From Acidobacteriota bacterium (GTDB taxonomy: Bacteria; Acidobacteriota; Blastocatellia; Chloracidobacteriales; JADJPF01): a DNA stretch of 64,000 nt. Below, piece by piece: positions 3,053 to 25,937 of the stretch (positions within the stretch are counted from its first letter, which is position 1; every line of letters starts with the position of its first letter). The notes below the pieces were generated by a model, which worked only from the letters and a program-made list of their open reading frames with translations, ran no database searches and was not told the DNA's origin. The position numbers and the translations under genes were made by a program. The stretch lies in contig JACQZQ010000025.1 of the NCBI GenBank assembly GCA_016213785.1, positions 1 through 64,000 of the forward strand, given 5' to 3'.

Positions 3053-6000
3053 CTATTTAATTTCTCTTATAATACGAAAACCTGCATACTCATGACGAGT
3101 TTCAGGAGTATTAGCAACACGAAAAGCAAGCCTACAAAGATTTTCAGGATAAAACCAACCGCCTCCTCGTGCAATACGATATATTCCAGAATTTAATACT
3201 TTTGGATCTATAGTTTTTTCGCTAGGGTAATCTGCATATGAATCCAAACACCATTCAAAGACATTCCCACACATATCATAAAGCCCCCATTTATTGGGGC
3301 TTTTTTTCCCTACAGGATGGGTAGTTTTATCAGAGTTATCTTGATACCAAGCTATATCATCTATTTTTTCTGAGTAGTAACTTCCTTTAGTCCCTGCTCG
3401 TGCAGCATATTCCCATTCTGCTTCAGTTGGTAATCTATATGTTTTCCCTGTTTGTTTTGATAATCTGGCACAAAATTCCACCACTTCATACCAATCTACA
3501 TTTTCTACAGGTAATTCATCGCCCTGAAAATAGGAAGGATTGATACTAAGAACTCTGTTTATTTTAGGTAGTGCAGCTACAGTTTTCCACTGTGCTTGCG
3601 TTACCTCATATTTACTCATATAAAATGGAGAAAGAGTCACTTGATGCAAAGTTTCATCGCCATTACGTAACTTATCAGTCGTAGGTGAACCCATTTCAAA
3701 ATCACCCCCTTCTATTTTTACCATTTCTATTTTTGTCTCATCAACTGATTCTATTTCATATATGGCATTAGTGTTTTTTTGATTTTTTTGATTTTTTTGA
3801 TAGTTTTCAGAAAGTTTTTCAGGTTGTTTATTTGTTAGTTGAGTCTTTACTTCTAGTCGGCCATCCTTTAAATAAACAGATGATTTAGTATTTACAATTT
3901 TTAGTACTTGTTCATAGGCTCTTTCCTCTGGCACTAATGACCATATTTTTGAGGTTTTATCTTCACTTGCTGTTAATATTTTTTCTCCATTACTAGAAAA
4001 TACACCACTATTTAAGCTATTTTGGTGTTCTGCCAAAACAACTAAAAATTTACCTGTGTCTCTTTCCCAAACCCTTGTAGTTTTATCATAAGAATTAGTA
4101 ATAATTAGCTTACTATCAGGGCTAAATCCGCCTGTTTGTATATCTGCCTTGTGAGTAGATAAGGTATAGACTAAGTTACCTATTGTGTCCCAAATACAAG
4201 CTGTTTTATCTCCACTAGTAGTTAAAATATTCTTTCCATCAGGGCTAAATTTTGTGTCTGTAATACTGGCTTTATGCCCAGTTAGTGTAGCAAGTAGTTT
4301 ACTTTCAGCTACTTCCCATATTTTGGCTGTAGTGTCTGTACTTCCAGTAACTATTAATTTGGAGTCAGGGCTAAACTCAACACTCACTATACTAGATTTA
4401 TGACCAGTTAGGGTTGTTTTTAATTCACCATTCTCAATATCCCAAATATTAACTACTTTATCTGCTCCAGCAGTTGCCAGCCATTTACCATTTTTACTAA
4501 AAGACAGTGCATAAATAATTCCTTGATGTCTTTTTAGAGTGTGTATTAACTTACCGTTACTACCATCCCAAATCTTAGCTGTTTTATCATAACTTATTGT
4601 TGCAATCTTTTTTCCATCAGGGCTAAACTTAGCACCTTGGAGCCAATCATTATGACCAGAAAGAGTTGTAACTAAACTACCGTCAATAACTTTCCATAGT
4701 TTAGCCGTTTTGTCTAAACTAGCAGTTACTAATAGTTTTCCATTAGCGCTAAAATCAATAGAGATAACCTCTCTATCATGTCTTAGTATAAAAAGCTCTT
4801 TACCATCAATAGCTTGCCAGATTCGAGCAGTTTTATCTCTACTAGAAGTTGCAACTAGAGTATCATCAGGGCTAAAAACAGCAAATGTTACTGCATCTCT
4901 ATGGTTATCAAGTGTAACAGAAGAATGTTTTTCTAAGGCTGCCAATGCAACTGAAAGCATATACCTTAATGCCAAACTATTAGCCCCTTTTGCGTAAGCC
5001 TCACTTAAATAAACAGCTGCACCTTCTACATTACCTTTAAGCATTTCTTGACGACCTTGTTCTTCATAAAGTTCTAAGGTTTGAAATAGCTGTTTTTTTG
5101 TTTGTTGTCTTTGATAGAACATCACTGCTGAACCTACTATTAGCACAATTATTGTAGTTAGGACTAAGGTTTTTTTTATACGCTGAGAACGGCTTGATTC
5201 CAATAGGCTCGTATTTATAAACTCTTCTTCTATATCTGTTAGTTTTCCTTTATAGCGTTCTTTCCAAACTTGGTATTCTATTAATATTTCATCTCTCCAT
5301 AATAATCCTTTAGTTTTACTATGCTCATTCCATTGACGTGTGGCAGCACGAAGTTGTTCTTTTAGTCTTGCTCCTTCTGTTATTTCTTGTCGCCATTTAG
5401 CTAAACGAGGCCAAGCTGAAAGTAGTGCTTCATGGACTACTTCTATTCTATCTATTCCTTTTTCTCCTTCAGTGCTAACTAGAAGTCTAGCAAGAATTAA
5501 TTTTTCTATCAGTGCTTCACTATCAGCAGTTTTCCCAAGTAACTGTGATAATTCTAGACGTGTTAAAATAGCTCTTGTGTTTTCACTTGTAACCAAGTGT
5601 TGAAAAGCTTCACGAACAAGGGTTTGTTCTTTTTGTGTCATTTGCTCCATAACTTCTTCAGCATGACGAGCTAAAGCGCCTCCAACACCACCCATAGCTT
5701 CATAGCTTCTTCGCCTAAGTTGCTTAAACTCTTTATCACGTTGTTCCCAAAGCTTTGCAGCAGTAAAAGCTAGTAGAGGTAAAGCGCTAGTTTGTTCTGT
5801 TAGTTTATTTACAATTTCTACAGGAAGTTCTTGATCTTCAAATTCATAACCTGTGCGTTTAGCTGGTTCAATAAGAATTCTAAGAAGTTGGCTTGAACCA
5901 GGAGTTGTAAGAAGTTCTAGACTTTGAGCAAGACGGTCTTTTAATCCTCTAAAGTCTTTAACTCTAAAAAGAAAATCATCTCTAACTGTTAATATTACTC

Positions 6001-8866
6001 TAAGTAAGTCTTCTTCTGATTGTGCAGATGAAATTATTGCTTCTACATAAAGATGTTGTTCTTCTTTATCTAAACAAAGTGTTAGGATTTCCTCAAATTG
6101 GTCTACTATTAAAAGTAGGGTTTTATTTTCTTTTCTAGTAAATTTTTGTAGGATTTTATATAAAAAGTTTATGTCTTTTTTTAAATTGTCTTTTAAGTCT
6201 GAAACTTCTATTCCTATGGTAGAGAGCTTTCTAGCAAGTGTAATAAGAGGAGAAAGCCCTGGTCGAAGAGTTATAACTTGCCAGTTTTCATCAAGCCTAG
6301 CAACAATACCTGCTTGGATAAAAGAGCTTTTACCTGCTCCTGATGGCCCTGCTACTATCAATAGAGATTGCACACGTAAGCGATTAAGAAAGCTTTCAGT
6401 CTCTTTTTCTCTACCTAAAAATAAAGCTGAATCTGCTGGCGAAAATGTAGCTAACCCTAAATATGGAGATTTTTCTAAAAATGTAGCTGTTTTTTCTTTT
6501 TCTTCTCCTATAACAAAATTTTCCTTAAACCATTGCCATGGACTTTCTGTTTCTATTTCAAAACCATCAGGAAATGATACTAGCTTTGCGCTACTACGAC
6601 CTTTTGATTCAAACAAAAAGACTTCTTGGTACGCACCTGGAGTTGGAGAAGATATTTCTATTAAAGGCCAAAGCGACAGTACAAAATAACCGTTAGGATC
6701 TACTAAAACAGCTTTACCATCAGATAAATTTTTATTTTTTAACATAATTGTACTAATCTCTTTTACTGCACCCATCCACTTAGTTGCTTGTTGGCCTTTA
6801 GGCAAAACTAAATAATAATCACTTAACCATGATGTTATATTTAACAACTTAGTAAGTTTAGCTAAGAAATTAGTGAGTAAGTTTGATAGCTCTTCTTCTT
6901 TTAGCAAGGCGCTGGAGTAAAGTTCCTGTTCAAGTTGTAGTAGTTTAGTAAATGTTTCTGTTGTAGAGCTAAGTTGTTCACTATCTGGAACAAAAAAAAG
7001 CGATACAAGTTCAGGAATAGGATAAATATCGCGATCTTTTGCAAAAAAGCGACAAAGCTCCCTAGATAATTCTATCCATTGCGAGTTACTTAATCCTTGT
7101 TGACGTAGTTTTACTATTGTCTTATTAATCAAGTCGTTATTTTGTTGACCAGTATTAGCACGCCCATAACTAGCAAGCGATAATATACCTATATAGTGTA
7201 CCAAAACACGAAATAAAAATAAGGCTCTATCTTTGAATTGGTAAACATTTCGTGCCGCTATAAGATTAGCAACCGTATTAGCTAAAGGCTTAGGCGCATT
7301 AGCTAAAATATTTTCTCTTAATAACTCATCTAGTTGAGGCATTGTTATTGCTTCGATAAGACCGGCTGCTTTGCGAAATTCTTTAGCAAATTCTAAAGCT
7401 GTTTGATAACGATCTTTTGGATCCTTTGCCATTGCTTTTGCAATTACACTATCCAATAGTGGTGTAAAACCTTTTCCCAAGCTTGGTACAAGTTCATTTA
7501 AGTGAGCAGCCATTAAAACAAAAGCTGAGCCTTTAAATGGAAGTTCTCCTGTAAGTAGCTGGTAAGCTAAAACACCTAAAGAATAAATATCGCTGCGAGC
7601 ATCAACTTTCGTACTATTTTCTATTTGTTCTGGCGACATATAAGCAGGAGAACCTATTATTCCTTCTGTTCTAACCACATATGTTTCCTGTTTTTTGGAA
7701 CTGGCTTCGCTACCAACTAATGACTTAGGCGTATTAACTGTACTTTCTTTTAATATCTCATCTAATTTAGGTAAAATTATTTCTTTACTAAAGCCTGCTG
7801 CTTTGCGAAATTCTTTAGCAAATTCTAAAGCTGTTTGATAGCGATCTTTTGGATCTTTTGCCATTGCTTTTGCAATTACATCTAGTAATAAAAGCTTACT
7901 TGAGTAAACAGGTATTAAACTAAGCTTAGAGTCTTTAAGAGGAAGTTCTCCTGTAAGTAGCTGGTAAGCTAAAACACCTAAAGAATAAATATCGCTGCAA
8001 ACATCAGCCTTTGTAGTATTTTCTATTTGTTCTGACGACATAGGAGAGCCTATTACTCTTTCTGTCTTAACTATCTCGCTCTCCTGCTTTTTAAGAAGTG
8101 TGGTTTTAGTTGGTTCTAAAAGGTCTTTTGTCTCTTTATCTTCTTGGTGTTTTTGAGTGTCAATAGTTTTAAGGGGGTCTTTTTCTGATTTAGTTTTTGT
8201 TATTACTTCTCCATCTTCTTGGTTAATAACAGCATCAGGTTTCTCTTTAGGAGCAAAGTTATTAAAGTTATTGTCTTGGCTATAAATTAAGCCATCATTT
8301 AGGGTAGAGTTCTTACCTGTAGGGATATTTATACTTTTATCAAGAGTAAGGTTTTGATTAAAGGCTTTAGCAATACCAAAATCTAGAAGTTTAGGGAGAA
8401 GACGGCCAGCACGAATAATCATCATAATATTAGCAGGTTTAATATCACGATGGACTATGCCTAGTTCGTGTGCAGTATGGACAACTTCGCAGATTTTATC
8501 TAATAAATCAACAAAACGTTCTAAAACGATTGGGCCTTGTATTTTTATAAGCTTATTTAGAGGAGTACCTTGGATTAACTCCATAGCAATCCACATTAAC
8601 CCATCACTTTCAACTCCAAAGGCATAAATATGGGCAGTATAGGGATGCTCAAGGCGTGAAGCCAGATGTGCTTCACGCCTAAACCTTTCTATTACTTCTA
8701 TATTTGCTCTATGATTTGCATGTAGGACTTTTATTACGGCTGGGCGGTCTAAAGTGATTTGTTGCGCCCTATACACAGCACCAAAACCACCTTCTCCTAG
8801 TTTTTCTTTAACTAAGAAATCTCCTAAAATACGTCCAATAATTGGGTCAGGTGTCTTAATAGCCAT
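3053..8866 (-). CDS. Giant Ser/Thr kinase - STAND NTPase - WD40 - FGE-sulfatase fusion protein
   Basis: This 1937-residue protein carries at least four modules. (1) Kinase N-lobe with LGEGGFGAVY (23-32), Lys46, HRDIKPAN (139-146) and DFG (162-164). (2) A low-complexity insert of about 100 residues, then two copies of the kinase C-lobe (about 270-380 and 400-505). (3) After an unassigned stretch, a P-loop NTPase of the novel-STAND type with AGPSGAGKSS near 838 and a Walker B LLLIVDQFEE. (4) A membrane-spanning segment near 1230-1252. (5) About seven WD40 repeats (about 1320-1650), then a C-terminal FGE-sulfatase domain (about 1715-1937; MVKIEGGDFEMGSP, RLPTEAEWEYAARAG, GLYDMCGNVFEWC). Such STAND/WD40/FGE architectures occur in bacterial signalling and conflict proteins. 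It lies 34 bp after rmlB. Confidence 0.9.
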   Translation of the reverse strand: MAIKTPDPIIGRILGDFLVKEKLGEGGFGAVYRAQQITLDRPAVIKVLHANHRANIEVIERFRREAHLASRLEHPYTAHIYAFGVESDGLMWIAMELIQGTPLNKLIKIQGPIVLERFVDLLDKICEVVHTAHELGIVHRDIKPANIMMIIRAGRLLPKLLDFGIAKAFNQNLTLDKSINIPTGKNSTLNDGLIYSQDNNFNNFAPKEKPDAVINQEDGEVITKTKSEKDPLKTIDTQKHQEDKETKDLLEPTKTTLLKKQESEIVKTERVIGSPMSSEQIENTTKADVCSDIYSLGVLAYQLLTGELPLKDSKLSLIPVYSSKLLLLDVIAKAMAKDPKDRYQTALEFAKEFRKAAGFSKEIILPKLDEILKESTVNTPKSLVGSEASSKKQETYVVRTEGIIGSPAYMSPEQIENSTKVDARSDIYSLGVLAYQLLTGELPFKGSAFVLMAAHLNELVPSLGKGFTPLLDSVIAKAMAKDPKDRYQTALEFAKEFRKAAGLIEAITMPQLDELLRENILANAPKPLANTVANLIAARNVYQFKDRALFLFRVLVHYIGILSLASYGRANTGQQNNDLINKTIVKLRQQGLSNSQWIELSRELCRFFAKDRDIYPIPELVSLFFVPDSEQLSSTTETFTKLLQLEQELYSSALLKEEELSNLLTNFLAKLTKLLNITSWLSDYYLVLPKGQQATKWMGAVKEISTIMLKNKNLSDGKAVLVDPNGYFVLSLWPLIEISSPTPGAYQEVFLFESKGRSSAKLVSFPDGFEIETESPWQWFKENFVIGEEKEKTATFLEKSPYLGLATFSPADSALFLGREKETESFLNRLRVQSLLIVAGPSGAGKSSFIQAGIVARLDENWQVITLRPGLSPLITLARKLSTIGIEVSDLKDNLKKDINFLYKILQKFTRKENKTLLLIVDQFEEILTLCLDKEEQHLYVEAIISSAQSEEDLLRVILTVRDDFLFRVKDFRGLKDRLAQSLELLTTPGSSQLLRILIEPAKRTGYEFEDQELPVEIVNKLTEQTSALPLLAFTAAKLWEQRDKEFKQLRRRSYEAMGGVGGALARHAEEVMEQMTQKEQTLVREAFQHLVTSENTRAILTRLELSQLLGKTADSEALIEKLILARLLVSTEGEKGIDRIEVVHEALLSAWPRLAKWRQEITEGARLKEQLRAATRQWNEHSKTKGLLWRDEILIEYQVWKERYKGKLTDIEEEFINTSLLESSRSQRIKKTLVLTTIIVLIVGSAVMFYQRQQTKKQLFQTLELYEEQGRQEMLKGNVEGAAVYLSEAYAKGANSLALRYMLSVALAALEKHSSVTLDNHRDAVTFAVFSPDDTLVATSSRDKTARIWQAIDGKELFILRHDREVISIDFSANGKLLVTASLDKTAKLWKVIDGSLVTTLSGHNDWLQGAKFSPDGKKIATISYDKTAKIWDGSNGKLIHTLKRHQGIIYALSFSKNGKWLATAGADKVVNIWDIENGELKTTLTGHKSSIVSVEFSPDSKLIVTGSTDTTAKIWEVAESKLLATLTGHKASITDTKFSPDGKNILTTSGDKTACIWDTIGNLVYTLSTHKADIQTGGFSPDSKLIITNSYDKTTRVWERDTGKFLVVLAEHQNSLNSGVFSSNGEKILTASEDKTSKIWSLVPEERAYEQVLKIVNTKSSVYLKDGRLEVKTQLTNKQPEKLSENYQKNQKNQKNTNAIYEIESVDETKIEMVKIEGGDFEMGSPTTDKLRNGDETLHQVTLSPFYMSKYEVTQAQWKTVAALPKINRVLSINPSYFQGDELPVENVDWYEVVEFCARLSKQTGKTYRLPTEAEWEYAARAGTKGSYYSEKIDDIAWYQDNSDKTTHPVGKKSPNKWGLYDMCGNVFEWCLDSYADYPSEKTIDPKVLNSGIYRIARGGGWFYPENLCRLAFRVANTPETRHEYAGFRIIREIK
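7310..7880 (-). repeat. In-frame tandem duplication of the kinase C-lobe, period about 432 bp
   Basis: Within the large kinase gene, GCTGCTTTGCGAAATTC and following bases occur at 7365 and again at 7797, almost identical for over 60 bp, giving a 432-bp (144-codon) period. Both copies encode SDIYSLGVLAYQLLTGELP and KDPKDRYQTALEFAKEF. The first protein copy has lost the canonical activation-loop end (GSPMSSEQ); the second keeps it (GSPAYMSPEQ). Confidence 0.85.
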
Positions 8867-21665: not shown

Positions 21666-21838
21666 TTTAAAAGCAATAAAGCCCAACGTTTTTATTAACT
21701 TTAAGATCTAAGTAATTTTCCTAGTACCTTTTAAGACCTTTCTAGTAGCCAGAAGAGACTAGTAAAATGGCTTCTCAAGAAGTCTAGTTTCTGTTACTCT
21801 AGACCTCAAATCCACATTTTAAGAGGTAATCTAATTTC

Positions 21839-22372
21839 ATGAAAAAATTATTGACCAAAATATTTTTGGCAATGAGTCTATGTGGTTTTCTTATGGGTAC
21901 TACAGTAAGTTTTAGTGCTACTACTCAACAAGCAGAGTTAGTAGGCCAAGCTGCTGTGGCTTTTAAGCTACCTTCTCACTTAGGTACAGATATTAGCTTA
22001 GAGCAATACTTAGGAAAGAAAAACGTAGTTCTTGCCTTTTATCCAAAAAATTTTACAGGTGGCTGAGAATTTGAATTAAAAAGCTTCCAAGCGGCTCTTA
22101 AACGTTATGAGGAAGCAAATGTCCAGGTTCTGGCCATTAGTAAAGATACTCTAGATTCCCACAAAGATTTTGCTAAACATTGCGGTGCAACCTATCCATT
22201 ATTAAGCGATACAGAAGGAAAAATGGCTGAAGCTTATGGTGCTTTTAAGTCAGGCGGTAGCTTTTTTTCTCGTCGAACAATTATTATCGATAAACAAGGC
22301 AAAGTCCGTTATGCCCAAAATGGTATGCCTAATCACGATGATTTATTAAAAGTAATTTCAGAATTTAAATAA
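21839..22372 (+). CDS. Exported peroxiredoxin with selenocysteine (TGA) at the peroxidatic position
   Basis: The frame from ATG 21839 reads through an in-frame TGA at 22064-22066 to a TAA at 22370-22372, giving 177 residues. Residues before and after the TGA belong to one AhpC/BCP-type peroxiredoxin: NVVLAFYPKNFTGG, then the TGA, then EFELKSFQAALKRYEE, LAISKDTLDSHKDFAKHCG, YPLLSD and RRTIIIDKQGKVRY. The TGA falls exactly where the family has its peroxidatic Cys (FYPKxxTxxC). Sec at this place is known in some bacterial peroxiredoxins. Sec would be residue 76, and Cys115 (KHCG) could be a resolving Cys. A signal peptide (MKKLLTKIFLAMSLCGFLMG) suggests export. A nonsense mutation at just this codon with no other damage is less likely. 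Confidence 0.85.
22067..22105 (+). promoter_or_regulatory. Candidate bacterial SECIS hairpin after the TGA
   Basis: AGCT at 22082-22085 can pair with GGCT at 22093-22096 (one G-T pair) around a seven-base loop, about 15 bases after the TGA. Interrupted A-T pairs (AA with TT, TT with AA) extend the stem outward. Bacterial SECIS elements sit within about 40 bases of the UGA, with the loop at this distance. The stem is weak and was found by eye. Confidence 0.4.
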
Positions 22373-22387
22373 CTATTAACTTATTTC

Positions 22388-22422
22388 CTAGCTAGCAGTT
22401 AATAGTTTTTGCTGCTAGCTAG
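22388..22422. terminator. Stem-loop between peroxiredoxin and ferredoxin genes
   Basis: CTAGCTAGCAG (22388-22398) pairs perfectly with CTGCTAGCTAG (22412-22422) around a 13-base loop. It lies between the two convergent genes and probably ends transcription from both sides, though neither side has a long T run. Confidence 0.6.
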
Positions 22423-22925: not shown

Positions 22926-25900
22926 ATGGCTAAAAACCCTTCAGAACCCAGCAAAGCGAAAATGTTACCTAGCCACGAAATTTATAATCGTGTTATTTGG
23001 GATAAACGCTTAAACCCAAATGCCTTTGTATTTGGGTACACAGATCGTTTATCTAGTACAGGAATAAAGCAAAAACCCCTTGTTGATTGGGATACTAACG
23101 GAGATATTCCTTGGCATCGTATTCGCTATATTCTTTGCAAAAATACTATTGTTTGGGATCGTGACCAACATATTGATAAATTCTCTTCTGGTGAACTGCC
23201 TAATGAAGCTTGGCAGTTAGAACAAAATTTAGTAACATTATCAGAATCAGAATCAGTAATTGCAATTTTTTCATCACAATCTATTTATCATCAGGATTTA
23301 ATGGGGTGGCAAGTCTATCATCAGGGAAAAGAAAATATCCTAATAGACAGTTTAAGTATAGTTACTTTTAATGTCTTATCTGATATGTATGAAGCAGATA
23401 AAATTTATACAAATGAAAGAATTCCTATAATTGTTGAGCATCTTAAAAATTCTTTAGCAGACATTATTATTTTACAAGAAGTTACAAAACCTTTATTTAA
23501 TCAGTTACTTAAAGAAGATTGGATAAAAGATTATTTTACTTCTGAAGCACCTGAAGCACCTTCACTAGCGCCTCAAAACCTAGTTATTTTCTCTAAATTC
23601 CCTTTTACATTGGTTGAGCATTGGCATTCGCCTCATAAGCGTAGTTTTGTAGCAAGTTGGCAAATTAATGATAATGCTCTACATTTAGCAGCAGTACATT
23701 TAATTAGTAATCGTGCTAATAAAGCTGAAGAAGTACGTGCTACACAAATAGCTACATTACTAAAATATTTAGCTACCCTAACAGGAGATTGTATAATTGC
23801 AGGAGATTTTAACGTAGCAGGTAATGAACATGATAGAGATTTTCTTGATAATGGGTTTGAAGATATTTGGAAAATACTAAAAGCTAAAGAAATAGGTTAC
23901 ACTTTTGACCCTGAACTTAACCCATTAGCTAAATTAATGAGCTTACAAGGAAAACAAGCTAGATTTGATAGGGTTTTACTTAGATCTAAAACTCATAATT
24001 GGCAAGCTAAAGAAATTGCTATATTTGCCTGTAAGCCTTTTAATAAAGAAAAAAATTTGTTTGCATCTGATCATTTTGCTCTTAAAACAGTTTTAAGAAA
24101 TACAAAAACAAATATGTTAGAAACAATTTCACCTATTTATCAAAGCGCTATTGTAATTATTCCACCTAAAGAACTTTGGCCTAATATTCAAGCGATTCGT
24201 AAGCTTTATGATAAAAAAATTGATCGCTGGATGCCTCATATTACTTTAATTTATGGATTTATCCCTGAAGAATATTTTCAACAAGCCTCTGAACTTATTT
24301 TACAGGCTTTAAGTAAGGTCAAACCCTTTACGATTACCTTAAATGGTTTTAAGACTTTTAGCCACCGCAAGAGTTCTACTGCTTGGCTTGAACCTCTTTC
24401 AAATCCTGAAAAAGCATTAGTAGAGCTACAAGCTACACTACAAAGCCTATTTCCTAAGTGTAATGAACAGAGTAATAAACCAAGCGGGTTTACACCACAT
24501 TTGAGCGTAGGTCAGTTTGAAAATCCTGCTTTAGCTCAAAAACTACTTCCTAGTTGGGAAAAAATAGAGTTTCAAGTAAATACAGTGGCTTTAATTAGTC
24601 GTCGTGGAGATCAACCTTTTGAAGTATGCTATAAAGTAGCACTAGGAAAAAATCTTAAGGTAGATAAAGCTATTGCTATTTCTAGCAATGGAAGAGAAAC
24701 TTTAGCCAACACTTTAGATAGGCTTTCACCTGCTATAACTAAAGAGCAAAAATCTAAACAAGAAGCTGTAATTTCAATAATTAAGCAAGCTTGTAAAGAA
24801 TCTTTAGGGCAAGAGGCTTCGCTGCACTTAATTGGCTCAACGCGCCTAGGAGTACAAAATCAAACTAGCGATTTAGATATAATATGTATTATTCCTGAGA
24901 CTTTAACAGGCCAAGAATTTCTTTCTAAAATAAAGGATCAATTATCGGGTTTTTACCAACAAGCACGAATTATTACTAATGCTCAAGTACCAATATTAAA
25001 GCTAAAAATCGATGATATCCTTATAGATTTACTCTATGTCCGTAGCAGCTTATTTCCTTTTTCAATTCCGTTAAACGCTTTATCACAAAGATATTTTGAC
25101 CAAACGAGTTGGCAAACTTTAGTAGGATGTTTAGAGGCAGATATTTTACTTGAAATAGTTAGCCTTTATGTTGAGCTTGAGGTATTTAGAATATTTTTAC
25201 GAGCTATTAGACTTTGGGCTAGGTCACGAGCTATTTTAGGAAATGCTTGGGGTTTTCCTGGGAGTTTTTCTTGGACAATTTTAGCTGCTTGGAGTTGTAA
25301 TAATTTAACTAACCCTAAGACCACTCCCGAAGAATTATTAGCTAACTTTTTTAATCGCGCTTCACAACACAATTGGAGTGAACCTATTGCATTAACTGAA
25401 TCTGCAAAAAAATACCATGTTAATTTGCCTAAAGATCGATTGCCAATTATTACATCTATTAAGCCTAATCAAAATAGTGCTAGAAATATTTCTCGCTCAA
25501 CTGCGGAAATAGTAAAACAGGAACTAGTTTTAGGGGCTAAGATTCTAGCTCAAATTCAAAAAGGGGAATTAGGCTGGGATAAGCTATTTGAAATACCTAA
25601 GCTAAATAGAAAGTCTCAGAAATTATTATTTATAAATATCATAGCTAAAAATACTAATGATCTAGAAAATAGTATTGGTTGGTTAGAAGGTCATATATTT
25701 GGCTTAATTATTAATTTAGAACAGCTTAATATAACTTTAAGACCTTGGCCTAAAGTCATAAAACAACAGACTTCAGGCCAAATAGCTTTAGAATTAAGTA
25801 CTAGTTTAGAAAAATCTGACCCTAAATTAAATGAAATTTTAGAATCATTTTCAAAAACTTTTTATACAGACCCAAGCTACTTAAAAGGAGTTAAGATTGA

Positions 25901-25937
25901 AATAGAGGTTTGTCTGGCAGAAGAAAAACCTCTCTAG
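22926..25937 (+). CDS. Four-domain RNA end-processing protein: MJ1316 - EEP - 2H phosphoesterase - poly(A) polymerase
   Basis: The 1003 residues hold four recognisable modules. (1) An MJ1316/DUF504 RNA-end domain, about 17-85 (NRVIWDKRLNPNAFVFGYTD, IPWHRIRYIL, VVWDR-like IVWDRD). (2) An endonuclease/exonuclease/phosphatase domain, about 145-390, with TFNVLSD, the catalytic Glu in IIILQEV, GDFNVAG and SDHFAL. (3) A 2H phosphoesterase (ligT/AKAP7-like), about 410-575, with paired PHITLIYG and PHLSVGQF. (4) A nucleotidyltransferase of the eukaryotic poly(A) polymerase kind, from about 610, with LIGSTRLG and SDLDI acidic motif, ILIDLLYV supplying a third acidic residue, and a C-terminal RNA-binding part (NSIGWLEGHIFGLI, ITLRPWPK). 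The set suggests trimming or healing of damaged or cyclic-phosphate RNA ends followed by nucleotide addition. An internal Met13 is a possible start; no clear ribosome site is seen. Confidence 0.88.
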   Translation: MAKNPSEPSKAKMLPSHEIYNRVIWDKRLNPNAFVFGYTDRLSSTGIKQKPLVDWDTNGDIPWHRIRYILCKNTIVWDRDQHIDKFSSGELPNEAWQLEQNLVTLSESESVIAIFSSQSIYHQDLMGWQVYHQGKENILIDSLSIVTFNVLSDMYEADKIYTNERIPIIVEHLKNSLADIIILQEVTKPLFNQLLKEDWIKDYFTSEAPEAPSLAPQNLVIFSKFPFTLVEHWHSPHKRSFVASWQINDNALHLAAVHLISNRANKAEEVRATQIATLLKYLATLTGDCIIAGDFNVAGNEHDRDFLDNGFEDIWKILKAKEIGYTFDPELNPLAKLMSLQGKQARFDRVLLRSKTHNWQAKEIAIFACKPFNKEKNLFASDHFALKTVLRNTKTNMLETISPIYQSAIVIIPPKELWPNIQAIRKLYDKKIDRWMPHITLIYGFIPEEYFQQASELILQALSKVKPFTITLNGFKTFSHRKSSTAWLEPLSNPEKALVELQATLQSLFPKCNEQSNKPSGFTPHLSVGQFENPALAQKLLPSWEKIEFQVNTVALISRRGDQPFEVCYKVALGKNLKVDKAIAISSNGRETLANTLDRLSPAITKEQKSKQEAVISIIKQACKESLGQEASLHLIGSTRLGVQNQTSDLDIICIIPETLTGQEFLSKIKDQLSGFYQQARIITNAQVPILKLKIDDILIDLLYVRSSLFPFSIPLNALSQRYFDQTSWQTLVGCLEADILLEIVSLYVELEVFRIFLRAIRLWARSRAILGNAWGFPGSFSWTILAAWSCNNLTNPKTTPEELLANFFNRASQHNWSEPIALTESAKKYHVNLPKDRLPIITSIKPNQNSARNISRSTAEIVKQELVLGAKILAQIQKGELGWDKLFEIPKLNRKSQKLLFINIIAKNTNDLENSIGWLEGHIFGLIINLEQLNITLRPWPKVIKQQTSGQIALELSTSLEKSDPKLNEILESFSKTFYTDPSYLKGVKIEIEVCLAEEKPL

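Follow-up and report, generated by a model that had tools for sequence, protein, structure and literature searches.

A predicted exported peroxiredoxin with an in-frame TGA codon at its peroxidatic position in an Acidobacteriota genome

Results

The peroxiredoxin gene and its TGA codon

The DNA analyzed here is a stretch of 64,000 nucleotides (the window) from an Acidobacteriota bacterium of the Blastocatellia (assembly GCA_016213785.1, contig JACQZQ010000025.1, positions 1 to 64,000 of the forward strand). Frame reading and Pfam searches placed a peroxiredoxin gene of 177 aa at 21839..22372 on the plus strand, in which an ATG at 21839 opens a run of 75 codons, followed by a single in-frame TGA at 22064-22066 (codon 76), a further 101 codons and a TAA stop at 22370-22372; a Shine-Dalgarno-like AAGAGG was found by reading 12 nt before the ATG (21821..21826, + strand). 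The Pfam AhpC-TSA domain matched across the TGA over residues 35-158 (9.1e-36; 123 bits against a curated cut-off of 26), and a Redoxin match (2.1e-21) also spanned the codon. The initial annotation had read both flanks as one peroxiredoxin with a signal peptide and the TGA as replacing the peroxidatic Cys codon, and both readings hold: the domain runs through the TGA, the N-terminus is signal-peptide-like, and in the alignment with Mycobacterium tuberculosis AhpE codon 76 matches the peroxidatic Cys. The protein conforms to the peroxiredoxin pattern P-x3-T-x2-C/U plus Arg, with Pro69 (22043..22045), Thr73 (22055..22057), residue 76 and, aligned with Arg116 of AhpE, Arg145 (22271..22273), all on the plus strand. 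These four residues align with the active-site residues of AhpE, and we take their catalytic role, including that of the Arg, to be the one established for peroxiredoxins. The sole other Cys of the mature part, Cys115 (22181..22183, + strand), is a candidate resolving residue by its place in the sequence and in a modeled helix. Together, the frame, the homologous loci described below and the AhpE alignment show that the in-frame TGA at the peroxidatic position is real.

It had also been stated that other genes of the window use TGA as a stop, which is true only in a weak sense, since the 36 ORFs of at least 200 aa end in TAA (27), TAG (7) and TGA (2). The idea that TGA is a general sense codon here was dropped, as it ends those two ORFs. 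The gene is flanked by NikR, a 124-aa ORF without a Pfam match and an RNA-ligase/polymerase fusion, with no redox partner beside it. The fusion, which adjoins the gene at 22926-25937 (+ strand), is a 1003-aa protein combining MJ1316, endo/exonuclease-phosphatase, 2'-5' RNA ligase and poly(A)-polymerase-like domains.

Predicted export and fold

The first 27 or so residues (21839..21919, + strand) are signal-peptide-like (MKKLLTKIFLAMSLCGFLMGTTVSFSA), without a lipobox and with a cleavage site that is not sharp. Our own heuristic and inspection by eye, used in place of SignalP, found a hydrophobic segment after a Lys-rich start both here and in the same-genus copy described below, and export of the protein is thus supported at the level of sequence. 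A structure model, built on an alignment of 11 rows that included 9 distant matches from viral contigs, reached a moderate pLDDT of 73.6. In Foldseek it matched peroxiredoxins with a TM of about 0.65, among them Xanthomonas campestris PrxQ (5ima), and it placed Cys115 at the end of a helix spanning residues 105-115.

Given the poor cleavage site, the protein may instead stay anchored in the membrane, and the Foldseek search also returned ResA. We therefore considered that the selenoprotein is real but that its N-terminus is a membrane anchor, or that its main activity is that of a thiol oxidoreductase and not of a peroxidase. The imperfect cleavage site (by reading) and the ResA match favor this; however, the TxxU motif of the protein is accompanied by Pro69 and Arg145, UxxC is absent, and the best sequence matches are peroxiredoxins, so that we regard this alternative as rather unlikely. 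The preferred reading, that the gene product is an extracytoplasmic selenocysteine peroxiredoxin, is very probably correct on the sequence evidence.

Decoding of the TGA codon

A candidate SECIS hairpin was predicted by folding at 22084..22112 (+ strand), +21 to +49 from the T of the TGA, and is weak. Folding after the UGA was compared with synonymous shuffles, which gave z -1.28 (P 0.11) for the window copy and z -0.24 (P 0.37) for locus L026. Among the homologous loci sorted below, the mean z was -1.68 in clade A, against -0.06 to -0.26 at four control offsets, and -1.12 in clade B, with controls from -0.61 to +0.58; in clade A the positions +21/+36 alternate between GC, AT, CG and TA pairs. 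An Rfam search of 21800-22420 returned no SECIS and only chance matches far below the gathering scores. A SECIS in the window gene is weakly supported at best. A UCCAAG-like loop common to selD and the window gene was considered and set aside as too little to claim.

A recoded UGA yields, as a general property, a short product when selenium is scarce and the full product when it is present. The gene might accordingly be a regulated dual-product gene that releases a 75-residue fragment at scarce selenium and the full enzyme otherwise; nothing in the present data points to a function for the fragment, and we hold this reading to be improbable. The efficiency of recoding is the subject of PMC4513850, as far as the available part of that paper goes.

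The machinery that selenocysteine requires was found in the same genome. It encodes selA (568.5 bits), selB (392.8 bits), a tRNA-Sec (score 63.6) with the anticodon TCA and, by reading, G73 and CCA, and selD (375.7 bits), which carries an in-frame TGA of its own within a KCGGU motif. A selD with TGA was also found in three other genomes (G001, G002 and G003), of which G001, from the same genus, has selB and a partial selA as well. The initial annotation had named a genome devoid of Sec-insertion genes as the finding that would speak against it, and this objection falls away since selA, selB, tRNA-Sec and selD are all present. One further tRNA-Sec match (L011, 48.1 bits, just above the gathering score) was rejected, as ARAGORN identified it as tRNA-Ser.

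Among the matches listed for the related genomes, a TGA-containing peroxiredoxin occurred in 78 of the 134 that have selA above its cut-off, compared with 1 of the 13 that lack it (Fisher P 6e-4, a value that ignores kinship and is confounded by assembly gaps). The lone exception, G043, has selB at 330.7 bits, and G002, which was counted as lacking selA, has a TGA-containing selD and part of selB, so that some of the absences of selA are assembly gaps. Together, these data strongly support selenocysteine insertion in the window gene, judged from sequence. We also considered that the UGA is read as Cys, or as another residue, by a different tRNA. Homologs do carry Cys at residue 76, and selC*-type tRNA-Cys with a UCA anticodon is known in other phyla (PMC7609411, available part). 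Against this, the sole UCA tRNA found here carries G73 as its discriminator base and is scored as a tRNA-Sec, and SelA and SelD are both present, which makes such decoding very unlikely.

The genome holds 22 AhpC-TSA places, and three of them contain one TGA, namely the window gene and two SelL-related sisters. The first of these (L069, G000:C70:88737-89048) scored 143.8 bits against a cut-off of 120 and has a signal-peptide-like start; the second is L154 (G000:C125:87597-87869). Both have an in-frame TGA and share the motif IRHFGULLC.

Constraint on the gene in the same genus

A contig scan for the window gene returned two loci, one of them close. The close one, L023 (contig JAHFUF010000652.1 of Blastocatellia bacterium nzgw73, whose coordinates coincide with G001:C744), shares 88% identity with the window gene and likewise carries TGA at the corresponding codon, so that the Cys codon in close kin which the initial annotation had set out as contrary evidence was not seen in the sole same-genus genome searched. 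Upstream of the TGA the two copies differ by 10 nonsynonymous and 17 synonymous codon changes, and downstream of it by 10 and 23, corresponding to a dN/dS (NG86) of 0.08/0.59 and 0.04/0.55 and to binomial P values against the neutral expectation of 6e-6 and 2e-9, respectively. These ratios indicate purifying selection on both sides of the TGA, as estimated by this method from the two sequences. That the gene is broken, with the TGA arising by nonsense mutation or through faulty assembly and the part behind it decaying, is scarcely credible: a gene caller would stop at 22066 and close relatives are limited to the two genus copies, but the TGA is common to an independently assembled genome, changes after it are 10 nonsynonymous against 23 synonymous, and 101 loci have TGA at this codon.

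DNA similarity between the window and L023 extends over about 21753..22413 (+ strand), with the flanks beyond unmatched, so that the two have only the gene and short flanks in common. Since the neighbors differ, the gene has moved or the region has been rearranged. A tblastn search of plasmids gave 241 records, all below 60% identity and none close.

Homologous loci and tree placement

Homologs were sought in 147 related genomes, of which 146 contained a match, and 150 loci were analyzed, comprising 30 returned directly, 119 further listed places and one stretch of the genome itself; by our count, G106:C7 is the one listed place not included. In these loci the codon aligned with residue 76 was TGA in 101, TGC in 38 and TGT in 11, with no TAA, TAG or other amino acid. 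Two of the 49 Cys rows are false alignments, namely L154 and L158, the latter having its TGA elsewhere. A single apparent TAG, in G013:C83, was rejected since it lies outside the gene, and the residue there is Cys.

Sorted by motif, the 101 TGA loci fell into clade A (65, in Blastocatellia), clade B (34) and clade C (2), the last consisting only of the window gene and its genus mate. Our own heuristic, together with inspection by eye, identified a signal peptide or lipobox in 64 of the 65 clade A loci, the remaining one (L129) being cut by a contig end, and neither feature in clade B. The initial annotation had called the protein exported and unusual for such a bacterium; export is upheld, and the claim that it is unusual is not, as such proteins are common among the relatives searched. 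The position of the motif Pro is occupied in clade A by V (60), I (3), F (1) and P (1) and in clades B and C by Pro, which is also kept in 47 of the 48 rows labeled Cys, the 48th being L158. All 63 clade A rows that reach the position have a C-terminal Cys, in place of which clade C has Cys115. The clade A loci lie among L027-L157 and L208-L224, and blastp clustering of their neighbors, judged by reading, gave no recurrent redox partner. The motif of clade B (34 loci: L031, L044, L053 and others among L076-L156) is mostly WTPVU, and clades A and B occur together in 21 genomes.

A phylum-wide search with a clade A query against 297 genomes gave a match at 1e-20 in 146, Cys forms included. We analyzed 17 of the 30 returned loci (L208-L224), 16 of them from outside Blastocatellia. 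All 17 have Sec at the site and a C-terminal Cys and lack the motif Pro, and by eye most have hydrophobic N-termini.

For the tree, L129, L158, L126 and L154 were dropped and four Cys proteins of the genome itself were added, giving 150 rows. A branch with support 99/82 separates clades A, B and C, two Cys rows and the genome's own AhpC from the PrxQ-type Cys rows. Clade A forms one group (88/95), and clade C (100/100, branch length 1.72) lies outside it; we had considered whether the window gene belongs within clade A, which the tree does not support. The exact place of clade C is unsure because of long branches. Its place across the 99/82 branch from the PrxQ-type Cys rows argues against clade C having arisen just by a recent exchange of Cys for Sec in the exported PrxQ-type proteins found in these bacteria.

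Discussion

The closest solved relative of the window protein is AhpE, the 1-Cys peroxiredoxin of M. tuberculosis (1xvw, 1xxu; 2.3e-19), with which it has an FTG-x-C/U-x-x-EL block and the aligned Arg in common. It differs from AhpE in having Sec for Cys, in its predicted export and in Cys115, where AhpE has Ser; a family-model search of the protein, in which Cys115 is present, gave no AhpE model among its matches. Alignment with PrxU-type proteins, proposed in the initial annotation, bore out a relationship and not membership of that family: PrxU of Eubacterium acidaminophilum (NF040737) likewise has the AhpC/TSA fold, a peroxidatic Sec and TxxU (PMC13188914, available part), whereas the window protein has a signal peptide and scores 55.4 bits against a cut-off of 270. 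Exported Cys proteins of the PrxQ/BCP type exist in relatives, but the window protein lies on the other side of the 99/82 branch from these and reaches 59.8 and 57.5 bits against cut-offs of 140 (NF006960) and 260 (NF053650). With clade A it has in common the signal peptide, the TGG-U motif and the side of the tree; it differs in keeping the motif Pro, which is missing in 64 of 65 clade A loci, and in being without the C-terminal Cys found in 63 of 63.

The protein is likely to function as an extracytoplasmic peroxide reductase recharged via a DsbD-type thiol relay, as far as its sequence allows this to be judged. In the mechanism we propose, SelB with Sec-tRNA would read UGA 76 as Sec, and the chain would leave the cell via the general secretory translocase. 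The Sec76 selenolate would then attack H2O2 or organic peroxides, polarized by Arg145 and Thr73, to give a selenenic acid that may be resolved either by Cys115, as a selenenylsulfide, or directly by a thiol partner. Reducing power could cross the membrane via DsbD and TlpA-like thioredoxins. The genome encodes a single DsbD_TM protein of 748 aa that ends in a thioredoxin-like domain, and TlpA-like proteins were recognized by reading among its AhpC-TSA matches.

That selenocysteine peroxiredoxins are already known, as the initial annotation acknowledged, is confirmed by a 2026 review (PMC13188914), whose available part lists the Sec-peroxiredoxin (PF00578, TxxU) as an experimentally verified family and calls PxxxTxxU highly conserved. 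A table there includes envelope-type selenoproteins, e.g., a TonB receptor and multiheme cytochromes, so that export of selenoproteins is not new; the same available part has no mention of acidobacteri, signal peptide or periplasm. Earlier work, likewise available in part, recorded 43 Sec-peroxiredoxins from the Sargasso Sea (PMC1088965), where the terms 'secret' and 'periplasm' are absent from the part available, three families with four selenoproteins in Acidobacteria in 2006 (PMC1794560) and one acidobacterium with three selenoprotein genes in 2025 (PMC12013277). A literature search that covered few subscription journals gave, among the titles listed, none on exported Sec-peroxiredoxins, Acidobacteriota included. 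What appears to be new here, as not found in print, is therefore the exported Sec-peroxiredoxins of Acidobacteriota and not the family itself, and the larger point is an exported clade of them in the phylum.

We consider it probable that Acidobacteriota have a phylum-wide and so far undescribed extracytoplasmic selenium defense, formed by exported Sec-peroxiredoxins of at least two lineages. One of these, clade A, would do without the 'universal' motif Pro and use Sec with a C-terminal Cys, and the genus of the window would have its own line with Sec and Cys115. If this is true, peroxide defense in the envelope relies on selenium across much of a large bacterial phylum. Selenocysteine is costly and easily oxidized, and Sec peroxidases outside the cytoplasm pose the problem of how their reduced form is maintained. 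Clade A, moreover, puts to the test the view that the Pro of PxxxTxxC/U is indispensable. The window protein, its genus mate and the tested clade A, clade B and Cys representatives all fell below the NCBIfam cut-offs and were left unnamed; since the curated models name no tested representative, routine annotation probably cuts these genes at the UGA, and if the phylum-wide reading is true, genes for exported Sec-peroxiredoxins are likely mis-cut in public annotation.

Elsewhere in the window, on the minus strand at 3053-8866, lies a gene for a 1937-aa protein with protein kinase, nSTAND1 NTPase, WD40 propeller and FGE-sulfatase domains.
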